From positions 1 through 22,812 of the IMG/VR virus record IMGVR_UViG_3300033145_002526: DNA of 22,812 bases. One strand, written 5' to 3'. Position 1 is the stretch's first letter, and each line of letters opens with the position of its first letter. The DNA comes from a virus. The notes under the pieces are model-generated. The model ran no database searches. It was not told the DNA's origin and saw nothing but the letters and a program-made list of their open reading frames with translations. A program made the translations under genes and the position numbers. Shown in pieces: positions 13,045 through 21,242 of this stretch.

Positions 13045-13889
13045 ACGTGAAAGCAGAGGACGGCCAGACTACTTTGCTTGACGACCGGGGATTGTTGCAG
13101 ACGTGGGAACGAGGGTTCCCCGATAACGTCGATGCTTCGCATCCTTGGACTACGAAATTTTTCTTGCCAGCAGAAATAAGGACTATCAAAAAAGCACTAT
13201 TACGGTTTAGCCTGATGCCCTTCCGCGCCTATGAGACTGGGGCAGCTAGTGGCGGAGGGCAGACTACTCCTTCTGCCGGAACACACCGCCATAGGGTATT
13301 TAAATGGGCAGGTGGAGGAATATGGGAAGACGTAGAATATTATGATACAGGTTCTGGTGGAGCACATAATCACGGTGGAGCCACGGGGTTGGCTGGAGGT
13401 CATAACCATGGTCTAACAGACCATCAGCATGGAAGATCGGAAAACCTCCCCCAAGGTTCGGCAATAGGTGACCATGACCATACAATTTCTAGCGAAGCGT
13501 CCCACACGCACCAGCAAATCGTCCCTATAATGCGGACATGGGACTGCCAGGATGAAAACGGAACCTGGCAGAATGTTGGGATTGGTAGCCCCTTAAATTA
13601 TGCTGATATTTGGACATATGAAGCGGCAGGGGGTCATACACATCAGATTAGTGATCATACTCACCCTCTAAACTTTGGTATCTACGAGGGTACTACTCCA
13701 CTTGACGTTACAGTTAATATAAATGGAGTAGATAGAACCGCAACACTAGGAGGGCCGTTTAACTCTGATCAGAGCAATCTAGATATAACCTCTTACCTGA
13801 TAGCAGGATGGAATACCATAGAACTTGGCAGTAGCCGATTGGGACGGCTTGACGTTGCGCTATTTATTCAGGTGCTGATGGGCTTGTAA
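13014..13889 (+). CDS. Histidine-rich tail fibre domain (HxH repeats), likely C-terminal part of Tal
   Basis: The 291-aa frame opens MDGATKRFGLNVKAEDGQTT, which reads as a continuation of the Tal frame, overlaps it by 31 bases and has only GGTGG directly before the ATG. After a beta domain (FFLPAEIRTIKKALLRFSLM) comes a region with eight HxH motifs: HRH, HNH, HNH, HQH, HDH, HTH, HTH and HTH, roughly bases 13283-13665. In phage T4 gp37, HxH motifs from three chains coordinate metal ions along a thin needle, so a trimeric metal-threaded fibre is likely here. The C-terminus (LDVTVNINGVDRTATLGGPF, SYLIAGWNTIELGSSRLGRL) is a beta-sandwich. It ends in a 26-base convergent overlap with the minus-strand gene. 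Confidence 0.75.
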   Translation: MDGATKRFGLNVKAEDGQTTLLDDRGLLQTWERGFPDNVDASHPWTTKFFLPAEIRTIKKALLRFSLMPFRAYETGAASGGGQTTPSAGTHRHRVFKWAGGGIWEDVEYYDTGSGGAHNHGGATGLAGGHNHGLTDHQHGRSENLPQGSAIGDHDHTISSEASHTHQQIVPIMRTWDCQDENGTWQNVGIGSPLNYADIWTYEAAGGHTHQISDHTHPLNFGIYEGTTPLDVTVNINGVDRTATLGGPFNSDQSNLDITSYLIAGWNTIELGSSRLGRLDVALFIQVLMGL

Positions 13890-14397
13890 TCGGTTCTACC
13901 GAGAAAGCAATTATCCAGCAGTTTTGTCCATTATCAAGTTCTATTTCGTACCATTCAACAATCTCAGGATACTTTTTATTCATGAGCCTGTCCAGCACCT
14001 TGAATGTTTCGCCCTCGTAAACCTGGCAGATAATATTCTGCGCATGAGAATCTGGCGTGCTTCTTACGTTTACTACATCAGCAACAACGCACACTTCTTT
14101 GCAACTAGCAGCTTCTGTTTCTTTGGCACCCAACCCTTTTAGAGAGCCGCTTATGCTGGAGCAAACTACTACGGCCCTATTTGCCTCATCCCACTCCACC
14201 TTCGCCCCCAACGCCTCGGCTACAAAGCGGACAGGCACGAACACCCTGCCACCGATCATCTGCGGCGGGGGGTCGCAGGGGACTTCGCGGCCGTTGACGA
14301 TGAGTTTAATCGGCTGAGCCGCCAGACCGAAGCTGGCCGTAGCGAGAAAAACGCCAGCGAGCAGGCCGGAAAGCAGGCCGATAAGAAAGCGTCTCAT
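13864..14397 (-). CDS. Secreted protein: CuAO-N-like domain plus bacterial SH3 domain
   Basis: This 177-aa product starts at ATG 14397-14395 with AAGGAGGA upstream; longer in-frame starts are not needed. Residues 1-30 (MRRFLIGLLSGLLAGVFLAT to FGLAA) are a clear signal peptide. Residues ~31-80 match the CuAO N-terminal-like domain: IKLIVNGREVPCDPPPQMIG, GRVFVPVRFVAEALGAKVEW. Residues ~95-170 resemble a bacterial SH3 domain (VADVVNVRSTPDSHAQNIIC, YEGETFKVLD, WYEIELDNGQNCWI). Such proteins act at the Gram-positive cell wall. Opposite orientation to the tail genes and its own possible promoter suggest a moron expressed from the prophage that alters the host surface. Five cysteines after the signal peptide could form disulfides. 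Confidence 0.85.
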   Translation of the reverse strand: MRRFLIGLLSGLLAGVFLATASFGLAAQPIKLIVNGREVPCDPPPQMIGGRVFVPVRFVAEALGAKVEWDEANRAVVVCSSISGSLKGLGAKETEAASCKEVCVVADVVNVRSTPDSHAQNIICQVYEGETFKVLDRLMNKKYPEIVEWYEIELDNGQNCWIIAFSVEPITSPSAPE

Positions 14398-14421
14398 TTT
14401 GGCATTTCCTCCTTGTAAGTA

Positions 14422-14450
14422 AGTATACGAAAGGGGTGTTTCACTATGAA
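14422..14450 (-). promoter_or_regulatory. Possible promoter for the secreted SH3 gene
   Basis: On the minus strand TTCATA (14450-14445) and TATACT (14427-14422) are separated by 17 bases, a fair match to a vegetative promoter. The ribosome-binding site AAGGAGGA (14414-14407) and ATG follow at once. The -35-like hexamer lies inside a 25-base tandem duplication, so the upstream element exists twice. Confidence 0.4.
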
Positions 14451-14487
14451 CTGCACTCTTTTGTTTCACTATGAACTGCACTCTTTG
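14438..14487 (+). repeat. Two tandem copies of a 25-bp unit
   Basis: Units 14438-14462 and 14463-14487 begin GTTTCACTATGAACTGCACT and agree at 24 of 25 positions. Each copy carries ATG AAC TGC ACT CTT. The only Shine-Dalgarno-like sequence (AAAGGGG, about 14430-14436) precedes the first copy. Reading from the first ATG (14446) stops after 20 codons. The longer ORF starts in the second copy. Confidence 0.9.
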
Positions 14488-14677: not shown

Positions 14678-14715
14678 CGTCTACCGGGCCACCCAACGTC
14701 TACCGGGCCACCCAA
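14678..14715 (+). repeat. Two perfect tandem copies of a 19-bp unit
   Basis: CGTCTACCGGGCCACCCAA occurs at 14678-14696 and again at 14697-14715 with no differences. The rest of the 14669-14853 gap shows no convincing gene. This tandem pair, the 25-bp pair 190 bases upstream and the nearby palindrome make the stretch resemble the multi-repeat ends of an insertion element or a site of replication slippage. Confidence 0.9.
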
Positions 14716-14853: not shown

Positions 14854-14883
14854 TTGACAATGCTATAAATGAAACATTATAAT
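14854..14883 (+). promoter_or_regulatory. Consensus vegetative promoter for the HTH-immA operon
   Basis: TTGACA (14854-14859) and TATAAT (14878-14883) are both perfect hexamers with an 18-base spacer. Transcription should start near 14890. It is the only full-consensus promoter in this accessory region and would make a new transcript independent of the tail operon, fitting expression in the lysogen. Confidence 0.85.
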
Positions 14884-14920: not shown

Positions 14921-15097
14921 GTGGATAAAGAACTACTTACTACCGATGAGCTTTGCCAGTGGCTCCGAATTAGCAGATCTACGGCTTGGCGCTGGCGGAA
15001 GGAAGGAATGCCCTTCATTGGACGCGGAAGAAGTATTCGGTATGAGAAAGCTAAGGTTCAAAAATGGTTAGAAAAGCAAACTAGCCAGAAAAATTGA
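14921..15097 (+). CDS. Small helix-turn-helix DNA-binding protein (excisionase/MerR-like)
   Basis: The 58-aa protein starts at GTG 14921 behind AAGGGGGTGG. An ATG at 14888 lies only five bases past the -10 box and would not be in the transcript. It has the Xis/DUF-HTH-17 pattern: LLTTDELCQWLRISRSTAWR, WRKEGMPFIGRGRSIRY, KAKVQKWLEK, that is, a winged helix with the recognition helix at RSTAWRWRKEG. Such proteins are phage excisionases or regulators. It is 5 kb from the integrase and heads the immA-parB operon, so regulator is the more likely role. It is followed directly by a structured leader. Confidence 0.8.
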   Translation: MDKELLTTDELCQWLRISRSTAWRWRKEGMPFIGRGRSIRYEKAKVQKWLEKQTSQKN

Positions 15098-15218
15098 GGA
15101 AGCCGCCCCTCGGCAAAGGTAATCGGCTTCCTCCCGAAACAGCCCCCGAAGGGGAATGCTCCATTGAACAGTATACCATGGAGCAACCTCCTCGGCAAGG
15201 GCACTAGAGGAGGTTTTT
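15096..15218 (+). promoter_or_regulatory. Three-hairpin leader burying the immA ribosome-binding site
   Basis: Three perfect inverted repeats follow in series. The first is GAGGAAGCCG/CGGCTTCCTC (15096-15105, 15124-15133). The second is TGCTCCAT/ATGGAGCA (15157-15164, 15178-15185). The third is ACCTCCTC/GAGGAGGT (15186-15193, 15207-15214). The last right arm is the Shine-Dalgarno of the next gene (ATG 15221), and TTTTT at 15214-15218 follows it. The third hairpin can therefore act as an intrinsic terminator or block translation. Hairpins two and three abut. CTCGGCAA occurs in the loop of hairpin one and again within hairpin three. The design suggests a switch responding to a protein, RNA or translation of the upstream HTH gene. 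Confidence 0.6.
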
Positions 15219-15220
15219 CT

Positions 15221-15640
15221 ATGCCCGAGCGCAAGGGTTTCGAGGTGATAAAGGTCAACAGGCTGCGAAATCCCGAGGCGGATCCGATATGGCAGCGGAT
15301 GGTAGACATGGCGACCAAGAGGGGTATTACTGTATATCTCGCTAACCAGATTTGCGAGAAAGTTATCGGCTTTTACTGCAAGCTAGAGGATCGTCAATAT
15401 ATCGCAATTGACTGGAACCTGACTGGCGAGAAACTGCGGTACGTCATGGCCCATGAGCTGGGGCACGCAGTGCTCCACGAAGGTAAGGCTGATTGGCTGT
15501 ACTACTACAAGAACCGTTACTACCGGAAGCAGGTCGAACAGGAGGCAAACGCCTTTGCGGAGAGGCTTCTGCGGTGGTTGGAAAGGAGAGGGAAGCTTGA
15601 AACTGCGGATCAGCGAAATCATAGTGGGCGAACGGCGTAG
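15221..15640 (+). CDS. ImmA/IrrE-family metallopeptidase
   Basis: This 139-aa protein has the zinc peptidase motif HELGH at residues 78-82 (VMAHELGHAVLHEGK) and a downstream glutamate in VEQEANAFAERLL (about residue 108) as third ligand. That is the ImmA/IrrE (DUF955) arrangement. In ICEBs1 and many prophages ImmA cleaves the element's repressor to trigger induction. Here the repressor encoded at the right end appears to be a LexA-type S24 protein, so the target may differ. Start ATG 15221 is chosen because GAGGAGGT lies just upstream; 15164 has no such signal. The 3' end overlaps the ParB-like start by 44 bases. Confidence 0.88.
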   Translation: MPERKGFEVIKVNRLRNPEADPIWQRMVDMATKRGITVYLANQICEKVIGFYCKLEDRQYIAIDWNLTGEKLRYVMAHELGHAVLHEGKADWLYYYKNRYYRKQVEQEANAFAERLLRWLERRGKLETADQRNHSGRTA

Positions 15641-16484
15641 AGAGGACTTGGGGGATATTGAAGCTCTGGCAAAGAGTATCCGGCAGTATGGATTGTTGCA
15701 CCCCATCGTGGTGGACGACAAGAAGCGTTTAGTAGCTGGCGAAAGGCGGCTTGAGGCATGTAAGCAGCTTGGGTGGGAGGAAATCTCAGTTACTTTCTTG
15801 GGGGAACTTACCGAAGAGCAACTTTGTGAGATCGAACTGGAAGAAAACATCCGCCGCAAAGACCTGAGCGAATACGAGTTATCAAAGAGCATGGTGGAAT
15901 TAGCAGAACTAAAAAAAGAAACTATGGCGACGCCCGCCATAGTTTTAGGAACAAGAGGTTCGGATGAAGGTTTTTACGAGGGTCGTAAAAACCCCGGCGG
16001 GCGACCTCCAAAAGACCGCATTCCAGAGAAAGCCATAGCTGAAGCGGTAGGAGTTCCCCTTCAGACATTGCGTGACGCTAAAGCTCATGTAGAGGCCGTA
16101 GAAGAATTCCCTGAACTAGCCTCTGTTCCCAAGACTCATGCCATTGAAATTGCTAGGCAATTGAAATCTGTGCCCGAACCTTTGCGGGAAGAAAAACGAC
16201 GCCAGATTAAACAGATACAGGAAGAAGGACAACGCAAAGAGGAACGTATCGAAGAGGTTTATCGTATCAAAAAATCGTTTCAACAAGTCCTGTACGGGGC
16301 AGCCACGCTCAAGATTGATGATGACCGTTTGAATGCTTGGCTTTCAAATATGCCCCAAGCCGACATTCAGAGGCAGTGGGAGCTAGTAGAAGAAGGAATA
16401 GCTAACTTAATGGTACTCCGGGACTACTTTAAAAAGATGTTTGGCGGACCAAGATTGGTGAAATTGGGGAGTGGTAAAAATTGA
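15597..16484 (+). CDS. ParB/Spo0J-like DNA-binding protein
   Basis: The 295-aa protein starts at TTG 15597 behind GGAAAGGAGAGGG. Residues 1-90 follow the ParB N-terminal fold: LKLRISEIIVGERRREDLGD, IEALAKSIRQYGLLHPIVV, KRLVAGERRLEACKQLGW, ELEENIRRKDLSEYE. GERR and ENIRR correspond to its CTP/nucleotide-binding boxes. A linker with two DNA hairpins follows, then a likely HTH (IAEAVGVPLQTLRDAKAHVE) and a charged helical C-terminus (LREEKRRQIKQIQEEGQRKE). Phage ParB-like proteins act in plasmid-like partition or as regulators. No ParA is visible, which favours a regulator. It lies in an operon with the ImmA and the next gene. Confidence 0.85.
   Translation: MKLRISEIIVGERRREDLGDIEALAKSIRQYGLLHPIVVDDKKRLVAGERRLEACKQLGWEEISVTFLGELTEEQLCEIELEENIRRKDLSEYELSKSMVELAELKKETMATPAIVLGTRGSDEGFYEGRKNPGGRPPKDRIPEKAIAEAVGVPLQTLRDAKAHVEAVEEFPELASVPKTHAIEIARQLKSVPEPLREEKRRQIKQIQEEGQRKEERIEEVYRIKKSFQQVLYGAATLKIDDDRLNAWLSNMPQADIQRQWELVEEGIANLMVLRDYFKKMFGGPRLVKLGSGKN
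15921..15993 (+). repeat. Two perfect inverted repeats inside the ParB-like gene
   Basis: ACTATGGCG/CGCCATAGT (15921-15929, 15935-15943) has a 5-base centre. GGTTTTTACGA/TCGTAAAAACC (15969-15979, 15983-15993) has a 3-base centre. Both fall in the linker between the ParB-fold and the putative HTH, where coding constraint is probably low. Possible roles are a parS-like binding site for the encoded protein, an mRNA element, or inserted palindromes. Confidence 0.8.
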
Positions 16485-19990: not shown

Positions 19991-20094
19991 ACATCGCATA
20001 TACCCCCAGACCGCCAATGCTAGGTGCTACAACGGTTTTGGCCGTTAGGCGGCGCGGAGCAAGACATGGGCGGAAGGGGCAAATTGACAGGGGG

Positions 20095-20144
20095 TCTGCT
20101 TGACGCGCAGGGGGTCAGAGGTTCAAATCCTCTCGGACGCACCA
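20095..20144 (+). other. 3' half of a tRNA(GAC, Val-type): attachment core
   Basis: The DNA folds as the 3' part of a tRNA. It has an anticodon stem TCTGC/GCAGG with 7-base loop TTGACGC (anticodon GAC at 20102-20104) and a variable loop GGGTC. The T arm is AGAGG-TTCAAAT-CCTCT, followed by the acceptor strand CGGACGC, discriminator A and encoded CCA. The matching 5' acceptor (GCGTCCG) and a D arm are not found upstream, so it is not a complete tRNA gene. Tyrosine integrases commonly use tRNA 3' halves as crossover sites, and the integrase gene ends 16 bases away. It is therefore very probably the att core. Confidence 0.82.
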
Positions 20145-20159
20145 GGAATGATAAAGGTT

Positions 20160-21242
20160 TCAGGGTTCGGGTATATCGTCCGGACCCTTTTTTGATTCCA
20201 TTTTGACTCCCACTTCGAGCACCCTATCCATTTTGGCTACCGCACGGCGCTTCAGTTGAGGGGACACGTGGGCATAGAGGTCTGCGGTAATATTGATCCT
20301 GGCATGGCCCAGGAGTTCTTGGACTACCTTTAGGTTCTCTCCCATCTCCAGGAGGCGTGTGGCGAACGTATGCCGCAAGGCATGGAGGTTCACGTTCGGA
20401 ATACCAGCCCGCTTCCGCAGCCGGTAAAACGTTCGGTTGAAATTGCGCGGGATGATCGGCGTGCCTTCGCGGGTGCAGAACATGGGTCCGTCCAGGCGGT
20501 AATTCTCTTCCTGAAGCATTCGGTCTTTATGCGCCTGAAGGGCGGATGCCACAATGCCGGGTAGCGGAACGCTGCGGGCCGATTTATCGGTTTTCGGCCT
20601 ATCTCGGTACAGCCCGGCCGTCTTGGTGAACGTCACACCATGCCGGATATGGATAATGCCCCGGCTCAGGTCCACATCGCGCCAGGTTAGCGCCAGGAGT
20701 TCTCCTCGCCGCAGCCCCGTGCCGAGGAGGAGAATAAAGGCGGCACCCAGGCGGTCTTCCTGGGCGGCGGTCAAAAACCGGTCAGTCTCCTCGGGAGTCA
20801 AGGCCTGGCGCTCGGAATACTTGAGCTGCGGAAGCTTTGTCCCCTTGGCAGGGTTGTAGGGAATCAGCCGGTTTCGTATCGCCTGGTCTAAAGCTCCGTG
20901 AATGACCTGGTGGATATGTCGCACGGTAGAGCTGGAAAGCTGTTCCCCGACCTTGGTCCGATAAAGAGTTTGAATCTGGTCTGTAGTCAAGCTTTGCAGC
21001 TGCACGGCACCAATTGCTGGCTTGATATGCACCCGCACCAAGTATTCGTAACTCTCCCAGGTGGTGGGGCGCAGGTCAAGCTTTTTATAATCGCTTAACC
21101 ACCTGTCCAGCCATTCTGCTACAGTAATTTTAACTATTCGCTGCCGCTTTCCGTCCGGGCACTTGCCGAGCTCGATGAAGATGCGCCAGTAGCCGGGGAC
21201 TATCTTGCCGTTCTTGCGGACGTGCTGGACGTGGCCGGGCAT
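20160..21242 (-). CDS. int: Tyrosine-type site-specific integrase
   Basis: This 360-aa recombinase starts at ATG 21242-21240 behind GGGGTG. Catalytic residues are all visible: R178 (GTGLRRGELLALTW), K217 (PKTDKSARSVPL), H287 and R290 (LHALRHTFATRLLE), H313 (ELLGHARINI) and nucleophile Y323 (DLYAHV). Residues ~38-130 are the core-binding SAM-like domain (WLDRWLSDYKKLDLRPTTWE, LTTDQIQTLYRTKVGEQLSS). The N-terminal arm-binding domain is short. GKRQRIVK runs straight into ITVAEWLDRW, whereas relatives usually have about 35 further residues (a Lys-rich helix and EPSK-type linker) between. The gene converges on the tRNA core, and its 3' end holds the right arm repeat. Confidence 0.95.
   Translation of the reverse strand: MPGHVQHVRKNGKIVPGYWRIFIELGKCPDGKRQRIVKITVAEWLDRWLSDYKKLDLRPTTWESYEYLVRVHIKPAIGAVQLQSLTTDQIQTLYRTKVGEQLSSSTVRHIHQVIHGALDQAIRNRLIPYNPAKGTKLPQLKYSERQALTPEETDRFLTAAQEDRLGAAFILLLGTGLRRGELLALTWRDVDLSRGIIHIRHGVTFTKTAGLYRDRPKTDKSARSVPLPGIVASALQAHKDRMLQEENYRLDGPMFCTREGTPIIPRNFNRTFYRLRKRAGIPNVNLHALRHTFATRLLEMGENLKVVQELLGHARINITADLYAHVSPQLKRRAVAKMDRVLEVGVKMESKKGPDDIPEP
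20163..20193 (+). terminator. Terminator downstream of the att core
   Basis: GGGTTCGG (20163-20170) pairs with CCGGACCC (20180-20187), with one G-T wobble, and is followed by TTTTTT. It would stop rightward transcription just past the tRNA fragment and overlaps the 3' end of the convergent integrase gene. It may be part of the sequence shared with the host tRNA terminator. Confidence 0.75.
20192..20212 (+). repeat. Right arm-type repeat of the attachment region
   Basis: TTGATTCCATTTTGACTCCC at 20192-20211 lies inside the 3' coding end of the integrase (encoding VKMESKK on the other strand). It is the partner of the left repeat at 19930-19949 (18 of 20 bases over the shared part). The two pairs flank the tRNA core at distances of about 150 and 50 bases, like unequal P and P' arms. 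Confidence 0.55.

Follow-up and report, generated by a model that had tools for sequence, protein, structure and literature searches.

Genes and features of the analyzed stretch

The window, a 22,812-base IMG/VR virus record analyzed over its whole length, is occupied in its left part by tail genes, including those for tape-measure-like and Dit-like proteins, and carries an endolysin and a holin at 17.4 to 18.6 kb. Since homologues of the tail genes come from genomes of Peptococcaceae, Desulfotomaculum, and Ruminiclostridium, the phage host is probably a member of the Bacillota of the Desulfotomaculia kind. A cassette made up of an HTH_17 gene, a leader, an immA-like gene, and a ParB-like gene is placed between the tail and lysis genes:

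14854..14883, plus strand: sense promoter of the HTH-leader-immA transcript, TTGACA-18-TATAAT (from the sequence)
14921..15097, plus strand: small HTH_17 (excisionase-like) DNA-binding gene, 58 amino acids, GTG start (Pfam HTH_17, E 4.9e-12; same arrangement in relatives)
15221..15640, plus strand: immA-like metallopeptidase gene, HELGH motif, 139 amino acids (Pfam Peptidase_M78, E 6.7e-9)
15597..16484, plus strand: ParB-like gene overlapping the end of immA (Pfam ParB_N, E 8.1e-11; PHROGs ParB-like)
20160-21242, minus strand: tyrosine integrase gene

Strong sense promoters are found at the corresponding place in front of the HTH gene in most relatives inspected. The ParB-like gene is probably in one operon with immA; its coding sequence contains two perfect 11-bp inverted repeats (15919-15945 and 15969-15993; loops of 3 to 5 nt, 24 nt apart), which are possible sites for ParB or another protein. 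A weak tRNA-like match at 20070-20141 (22 bits, below the gathering score) adjoins the integrase gene and may represent the 3' end of a host tRNA copied in the attachment site. Two short tandem duplications (14435-14480 and 14680-14715) precede the HTH promoter; their units, TTTCACTATGAACTGCACTCTT and GTCTACCGGGCCACCCAA, are each present twice. Between the tail and HTH genes lies a minus-strand gene (13864-14481) whose product has copper amine oxidase N-terminal and SH3_3 domains, and two other loci, L002 and L013, have a gene resembling it after the same tail gene.

Stems of the immA leader

The sense leader between the HTH and immA genes contains three perfect stems:

15096-15105 with 15124-15133: stem 1, GAGGAAGCCG/CGGCTTCCTC, 10 bp
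15157-15164 with 15178-15185: stem 2, TGCTCCAT/ATGGAGCA, 8 bp
15185-15193 with 15207-15215: stem 3, AACCTCCTC/GAGGAGGTT, 9 bp, followed by U's

The 22.8-kb window has only 23 perfect inverted repeats of at least 8 bp with spacers of no more than 25 nt, three of which cluster within 120 nt at the immA leader. Compared with dinucleotide shuffles, this stretch has a better predicted fold (z -3.0; 1 of 200). An earlier note on this DNA had described stems of 10, 8, and 8 bp standing in series, with the HTH gene ending inside the first and the immA Shine-Dalgarno in the last, which ends in a T-run. All three stems were recovered, stem 3 being one pair longer; the HTH stop codon TGA (15095-15097) indeed sits at the foot of stem 1, and the Shine-Dalgarno (15209-15213) lies inside stem 3 with U's following it, so that stem 3 can hide it as proposed. 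The serial arrangement, however, was not borne out. Besides stem 1, the predicted minimum-energy fold has a single tall hairpin (15142-15202) that incorporates stem 2 and is in competition with stem 3.

A predicted antisense RNA opposite the leader

The minus strand of the leader, for which the earlier note had listed neither promoter nor terminator, carries a sigma-70-type promoter, TTGCCG-17-TATACT, which is enclosed by stem 2 and overlapped by stem 3. Its score was reached by none of 300 shuffles. From this promoter, an antisense RNA of about 78 nt, running from about 15164 to 15087, is predicted:

15087..15164, minus strand: predicted antisense RNA, about 78 nt, two hairpins (covariance models R1/R2; folds of 11 relatives; covariation)
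15089..15133, minus strand: predicted intrinsic terminator of the antisense RNA, equal to stem 1, 10-bp hairpin then AA-UUUUU (covariation; A-run kept on the plus strand)
15143..15154, minus strand: predicted 5' hairpin of the antisense RNA, CCCC-UUCG-GGGG type (sequence; folds; weaker covariation, 82.7% paired)
15170..15175, minus strand: -10 box TATACT of the antisense promoter, in the stem 2 loop (promoter score)
15193..15198, minus strand: -35 box TTGCCG, 17 bp from the -10 box (position conserved in relatives)

In all 11 elements first collected, the distance from the -10 box to the end of the U-run was 72 to 91 nt, and minus-strand promoter scores exceeded plus-strand scores. The RNAs predicted from these elements are 66 to 85 nt long and alike in fold, with a 5' hairpin followed by a terminator hairpin, the former being highly variable and less well supported. 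The terminator loop, UUUGCC in the window and UUGGCG in many relatives, is often UUGGCG or UUUG, of the YUNR U-turn type, and loops of this type speed antisense pairing (PMC4485353). A peptide encoded by the antisense RNA was considered and rejected, as the AUG at the 5' end in the window is not conserved.

Relatives of the element and covariation

Searches of viral and genome contigs with the ImmA or ParB protein found no close relatives, and no near DNA matches to the window were present among phages and plasmids. A scan of viral contigs for the loop motif CCTCGGCAANGGNACTA gave 29 stretches lacking a hairpin or immA context, which were discarded as chance matches, and a strict stem 1 pattern occurred in no viral contigs and in one genome only. 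A weaker ImmA search of 113 genomes of the Desulfotomaculia class revealed a locus, L052, in which a hairpin resembling stem 1, with two compensatory changes, likewise lies at the end of an HTH gene. Searching the same 113 genomes with the HTH protein gave several more loci with the element, with differing genes downstream.

Covariance models were built from the antisense RNA body alone, leaving out the promoter. These found new members in the Desulfotomaculia class, in 398 Bacillota genomes sampled across the phylum, and in two viral contigs. Each of the eight untrained matches scoring above 30 bits had a minus-strand promoter 3 to 11 nt from the predicted 5' end (p 0.002 to 0.032). Five weaker matches also had such a promoter, while the other 15 weak matches did not (p above 0.12). 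Both the promoter and the expected arrangement were present in the weaker matches L146, L160, L161, and L162; L143 had the promoter and no clear context, and the remaining 15 weak matches had neither. Low-scoring matches with neither promoter nor small regulator gene (e.g., L117-L129, L144, and L145, as well as L147-L157 and L159) were rejected as false.

In an alignment of 13 members fitted to the covariance model, 10 of 18 base pairs had changed on both sides, with 24 doubly changed cells observed compared with 6.7 in shuffles (0 of 500). Within the terminator stem, 7 of 10 pairs carried changes on both sides. An alignment not fitted to the model still gave seven doubly changed pairs. The anatomy of the predicted antisense locus and its conservation can be read from sequence and alignment. 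The conserved pairing for which the earlier note had suggested a covariance search exists, although immA lies downstream in only a few relatives. An element acting at the DNA level only, such as operators, an origin, or attachment-site repeats, is extremely improbable: small DNA-binding genes do adjoin the palindromes, which could bind protein, but the U-run and promoter are strand specific, the loops are conserved, compensatory changes run across asymmetric hairpins, and variable Shine-Dalgarnos are paired.

No Rfam 15 family matches over the element in the window or the relatives scanned, and no description of such an antisense arrangement in phages or integrative elements was found in the literature searched. 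Where the contigs of L052 and L085 end (1-100), unrelated GC-rich sequence takes the place of the HTH gene's 5' part, which probably reflects an assembly error. L049 and L050 (both 56-290) match Rfam BsrG (RF01412) above the gathering score near a phage-like immA gene, and L146 (940-1167) has a weaker BsrG (RF01412) match. L051 (1429-2393) holds a tandem pair of immA-like genes behind a diverged copy of the element.

Genes surrounding the element

A small DNA-binding gene, in most cases HTH_17, usually precedes the strong matches; ribbon-helix-helix-looking genes stand upstream in L139, L141, L142, and L160, and the upstream gene is different or not recognized in L116, L137, L138, and L161. 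A type I toxin-antitoxin locus was rejected, because the upstream product, where identifiable, is an HTH or ribbon-helix-helix protein and not a hydrophobic peptide. Downstream, the genes are varied and include unknown phage genes, with immA in few relatives only. Since integrases, anti-repressors, endolysins, and portal and head proteins populate the neighborhoods, along with transposases and some chromosomal genes, prophages are the main, though perhaps not the sole, location of the family. The element is missing next to the HTH homologues of named Bacillus, Listeria, Lysinibacillus, and Lactobacillus phages and of two plasmids, where the next gene follows within 13 nt.

The antisense terminator overlaps the HTH stop codon in most HTH-bearing members, an arrangement that could be read in two other ways. 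A stand-alone leader switch or translation-coupled attenuator would have ribosomes finishing the HTH gene open stem 1, causing refolding downstream; the earlier note had proposed such a self-contained switch of immA. In its favor, the stop codon sits at the base of stem 1 both in the window and in most HTH-bearing relatives, and stem 3 hides the Shine-Dalgarno. However, the opening of stem 1 by ribosomes is not conserved, because relatives differ in how far stem 1 lies from the upstream stop codon, and a clear small regulator gene is missing upstream in some of them. Moreover, this reading leaves unaccounted for the conserved minus-strand promoter, located in stems 2 and 3, and the U-run behind stem 1, and the strongest covariation falls on stem 1, which is best explained as the antisense terminator. 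We consider a stand-alone switch improbable, and the stems are best read as parts of one two-strand device.

The second reading resembles lambda OOP: a duplex over the HTH 3' end would be cleaved by RNase III and the HTH transcript lost, with little direct effect on immA. OOP, 77 nt long, overlaps the cII 3' end, and we know of no Shine-Dalgarno switch associated with it in the next gene. It is a phage antisense RNA against a regulator gene and acts through RNase III decay of cII mRNA (PMC12197685). The predicted RNA is likewise antisense to the 3' end of an upstream regulator gene, and it fits in size and position, being short, with its own promoter and with a terminator that overlaps a small DNA-binding gene at the 3' end. 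OOP-like action would nevertheless leave unexplained a conserved, covarying pairing downstream of the antisense target (see below); in L132, the upstream gene stops 39 nt before the start of the element, and some members lack a clear small regulator gene. On balance, we regard this reading as unlikely, if the least improbable of the alternatives.

Mutually exclusive pairing of the Shine-Dalgarno

The sense leader contains the following features downstream of stem 1:

15142..15202, plus strand: sense hairpin P2 ("pre-emptor"), containing stem 2 (minimum-energy fold; arm pairing beats shuffles in 25 members)
15185..15193, plus strand: anti-Shine-Dalgarno segment AACCTCCTC, common to P2 and stem 3
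15207..15218, plus strand: Shine-Dalgarno arm GAGGAGGTT and U-run, making stem 3, which would sequester the Shine-Dalgarno and may act as an attenuator

The 5' arm of P2 (15142-15164) lies within the antisense target and its 3' arm (15178-15202) lies outside, so that the mRNA segment AACCTCCT has as alternative partners either an upstream arm inside the target or the Shine-Dalgarno. For 25 members, the stretch lying between the antisense start and the Shine-Dalgarno was compared with each of its two potential partners, the Shine-Dalgarno itself and the segment covered by the antisense RNA. Each helix outperformed dinucleotide shuffles, with combined p values, which overstate independence because the members are related, of about 5e-17 for the anti-Shine-Dalgarno:Shine-Dalgarno helix and 2e-19 for P2. 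In 25 of 25 members the two helices share 8 to 19 nt of the 3' arm and are thus mutually exclusive. Where the Shine-Dalgarno departs from AGGAGG, the arm departs alongside it (e.g., in L142, L146, L160, and L165), giving matched pairs such as GAAAGGAT/ATCCTTTC in L142, AAAGAGGC/GCCTCTTT in L146, and AAGGAAGT/ACTTCCTT in L165. Collectively, the exclusive helices and the matched arm changes suggest that the antisense RNA probably forces sequestration of the Shine-Dalgarno.

Masking of the antisense target in folding reduced the predicted probability that the Shine-Dalgarno is unpaired from 0.27 to 0.00 in the window and closed the Shine-Dalgarno in most members, the exceptions including L053 and L081. 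In L116, L131, L100, and L081, the Shine-Dalgarno is predicted to be paired even without the antisense RNA. A U-run follows the Shine-Dalgarno stem in the window, in L132, and in some others, making the stem terminator-like there; as it is not universal, termination is not a general feature. An ACCUCC-like sequence is often found in the 5' part of the antisense RNA, as would be expected if it acted mostly in trans, using this anti-Shine-Dalgarno-like part to bind other Shine-Dalgarnos, the overlap with the leader being incidental. The conserved alternative pairing within the sense leader itself points instead to control in cis, and we consider a chiefly trans-acting role very improbable.

Proposed mechanism

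We therefore favor, as the likely reading, gating of the cassette that follows the small DNA-binding gene by a cis-antisense RNA. The sense promoter (14854) would produce an mRNA of the HTH, leader, immA, and parB-like genes, while the counter-promoter in the leader would give the RNA of about 78 nt ending at the terminator over the HTH stop codon. As long as the antisense RNA is not bound, P2 would form and hold the anti-Shine-Dalgarno segment, leaving the Shine-Dalgarno usable. Pairing of the antisense RNA to stem 1 and to the P2 5' arm would release the 3' arm, which would then pair with the Shine-Dalgarno and block immA translation; where a U-run follows, transcription may end as well. Antisense transcription, duplex formation, and repression are what we infer from the conserved anatomy.

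Comparison with known antisense systems

Antisense RNAs that flip a leader between open and Shine-Dalgarno-hiding folds are textbook plasmid copy control. RNAI of pSK41, of the staphylococcal RepA_N plasmids, is an antisense RNA of about 83 nt with two stem-loops; when it binds, a stem forms in which the ribosome binding site is concealed (PMC5703833). The phage element shares with it a two-hairpin RNA directed against a leader and a sequestered ribosome binding site; unlike the phage element, RNAI controls plasmid rep, lies about 100 nt upstream of the start region, and is not situated between a small DNA-binding gene and phage genes. The likeness is put forward as one of mechanism. In pT181, where RNAI is 87 nt, a leader pre-emptor opposes stem-loop IV, which contains the ribosome binding site and is terminator-like (PMC5703833). 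The pre-emptor logic of pT181 RNAI and pIP501 RNAIII is that predicted here, and pIP501 likewise joins an HTH Cop protein with an antisense RNA. Those systems serve plasmid replication genes and act mainly by termination, whereas the phage U-run is not universal.

The placement next to a small DNA-binding gene recalls copG-RNAII-repB of pMV158 and CopR-RNAIII of pIP501 (PMC4485353, PMC5703833). RNAII of pMV158 is counter-transcribed over the intergenic region and ends in a terminator hairpin, and its inhibition is attributed to the duplex hindering ribosome binding (PMC4485353). Common to both is the order of small DNA-binding gene, counter-transcribed intergenic RNA, and controlled gene; RNAII, however, is 48 nt long with one hairpin, no U-turn, and no induced Shine-Dalgarno stem, whereas the phage RNAs are predicted to have 66 to 85 nt, two hairpins, and in most a U-turn-like loop. 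As in the pT181/pSK41 type, the leader contains a predicted counter-transcribed RNA with conserved promoter and terminator and two exclusive helices, one hiding the ribosome binding site and the other using the antisense-target segment. We do not class the family with that type, because the downstream genes are immA-like or unknown phage genes and not replication initiators.

By eye and promoter score, the same layout is seen after related ribbon-helix-helix genes in the Streptococcus satellite Javan747, in Clostridioides phage pCD1602_4, in Fusobacterium phage phiFN37, and in two further phages:

L196 (Javan747) 1547-1730; L193, L194, L195, and L197, corresponding places: antisense-like layout after ribbon-helix-helix genes

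These five loci remain leads, since they are too diverged for the covariance models to pick up by sequence and only two of the five have significant pairing of the Shine-Dalgarno. A large undescribed class in phages and satellites, in which a small DNA-binding gene, an antisense RNA, and a gated cassette combine in plasmid-style control, might span the Bacillota prophages and the diverged Streptococcus, Clostridioides, and Fusobacterium phages or satellites; we put this forward tentatively, as somewhat less probable than its converse. If true, such control would couple the expression of accessory genes to the copy number of the element or to its lysogenic state.

The narrower conclusion, a previously undescribed antisense RNA family of Bacillota prophages built of ordinary parts in an unusual place, is well supported. 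The covariance model is ready for use and predicts a small RNA that annotation and Rfam have missed. The family would bring plasmid copy-control logic into Bacillota prophages, where it would gate varied genes, including those for ImmA-type metallopeptidases, and it bears on how temperate phages keep accessory genes silent.
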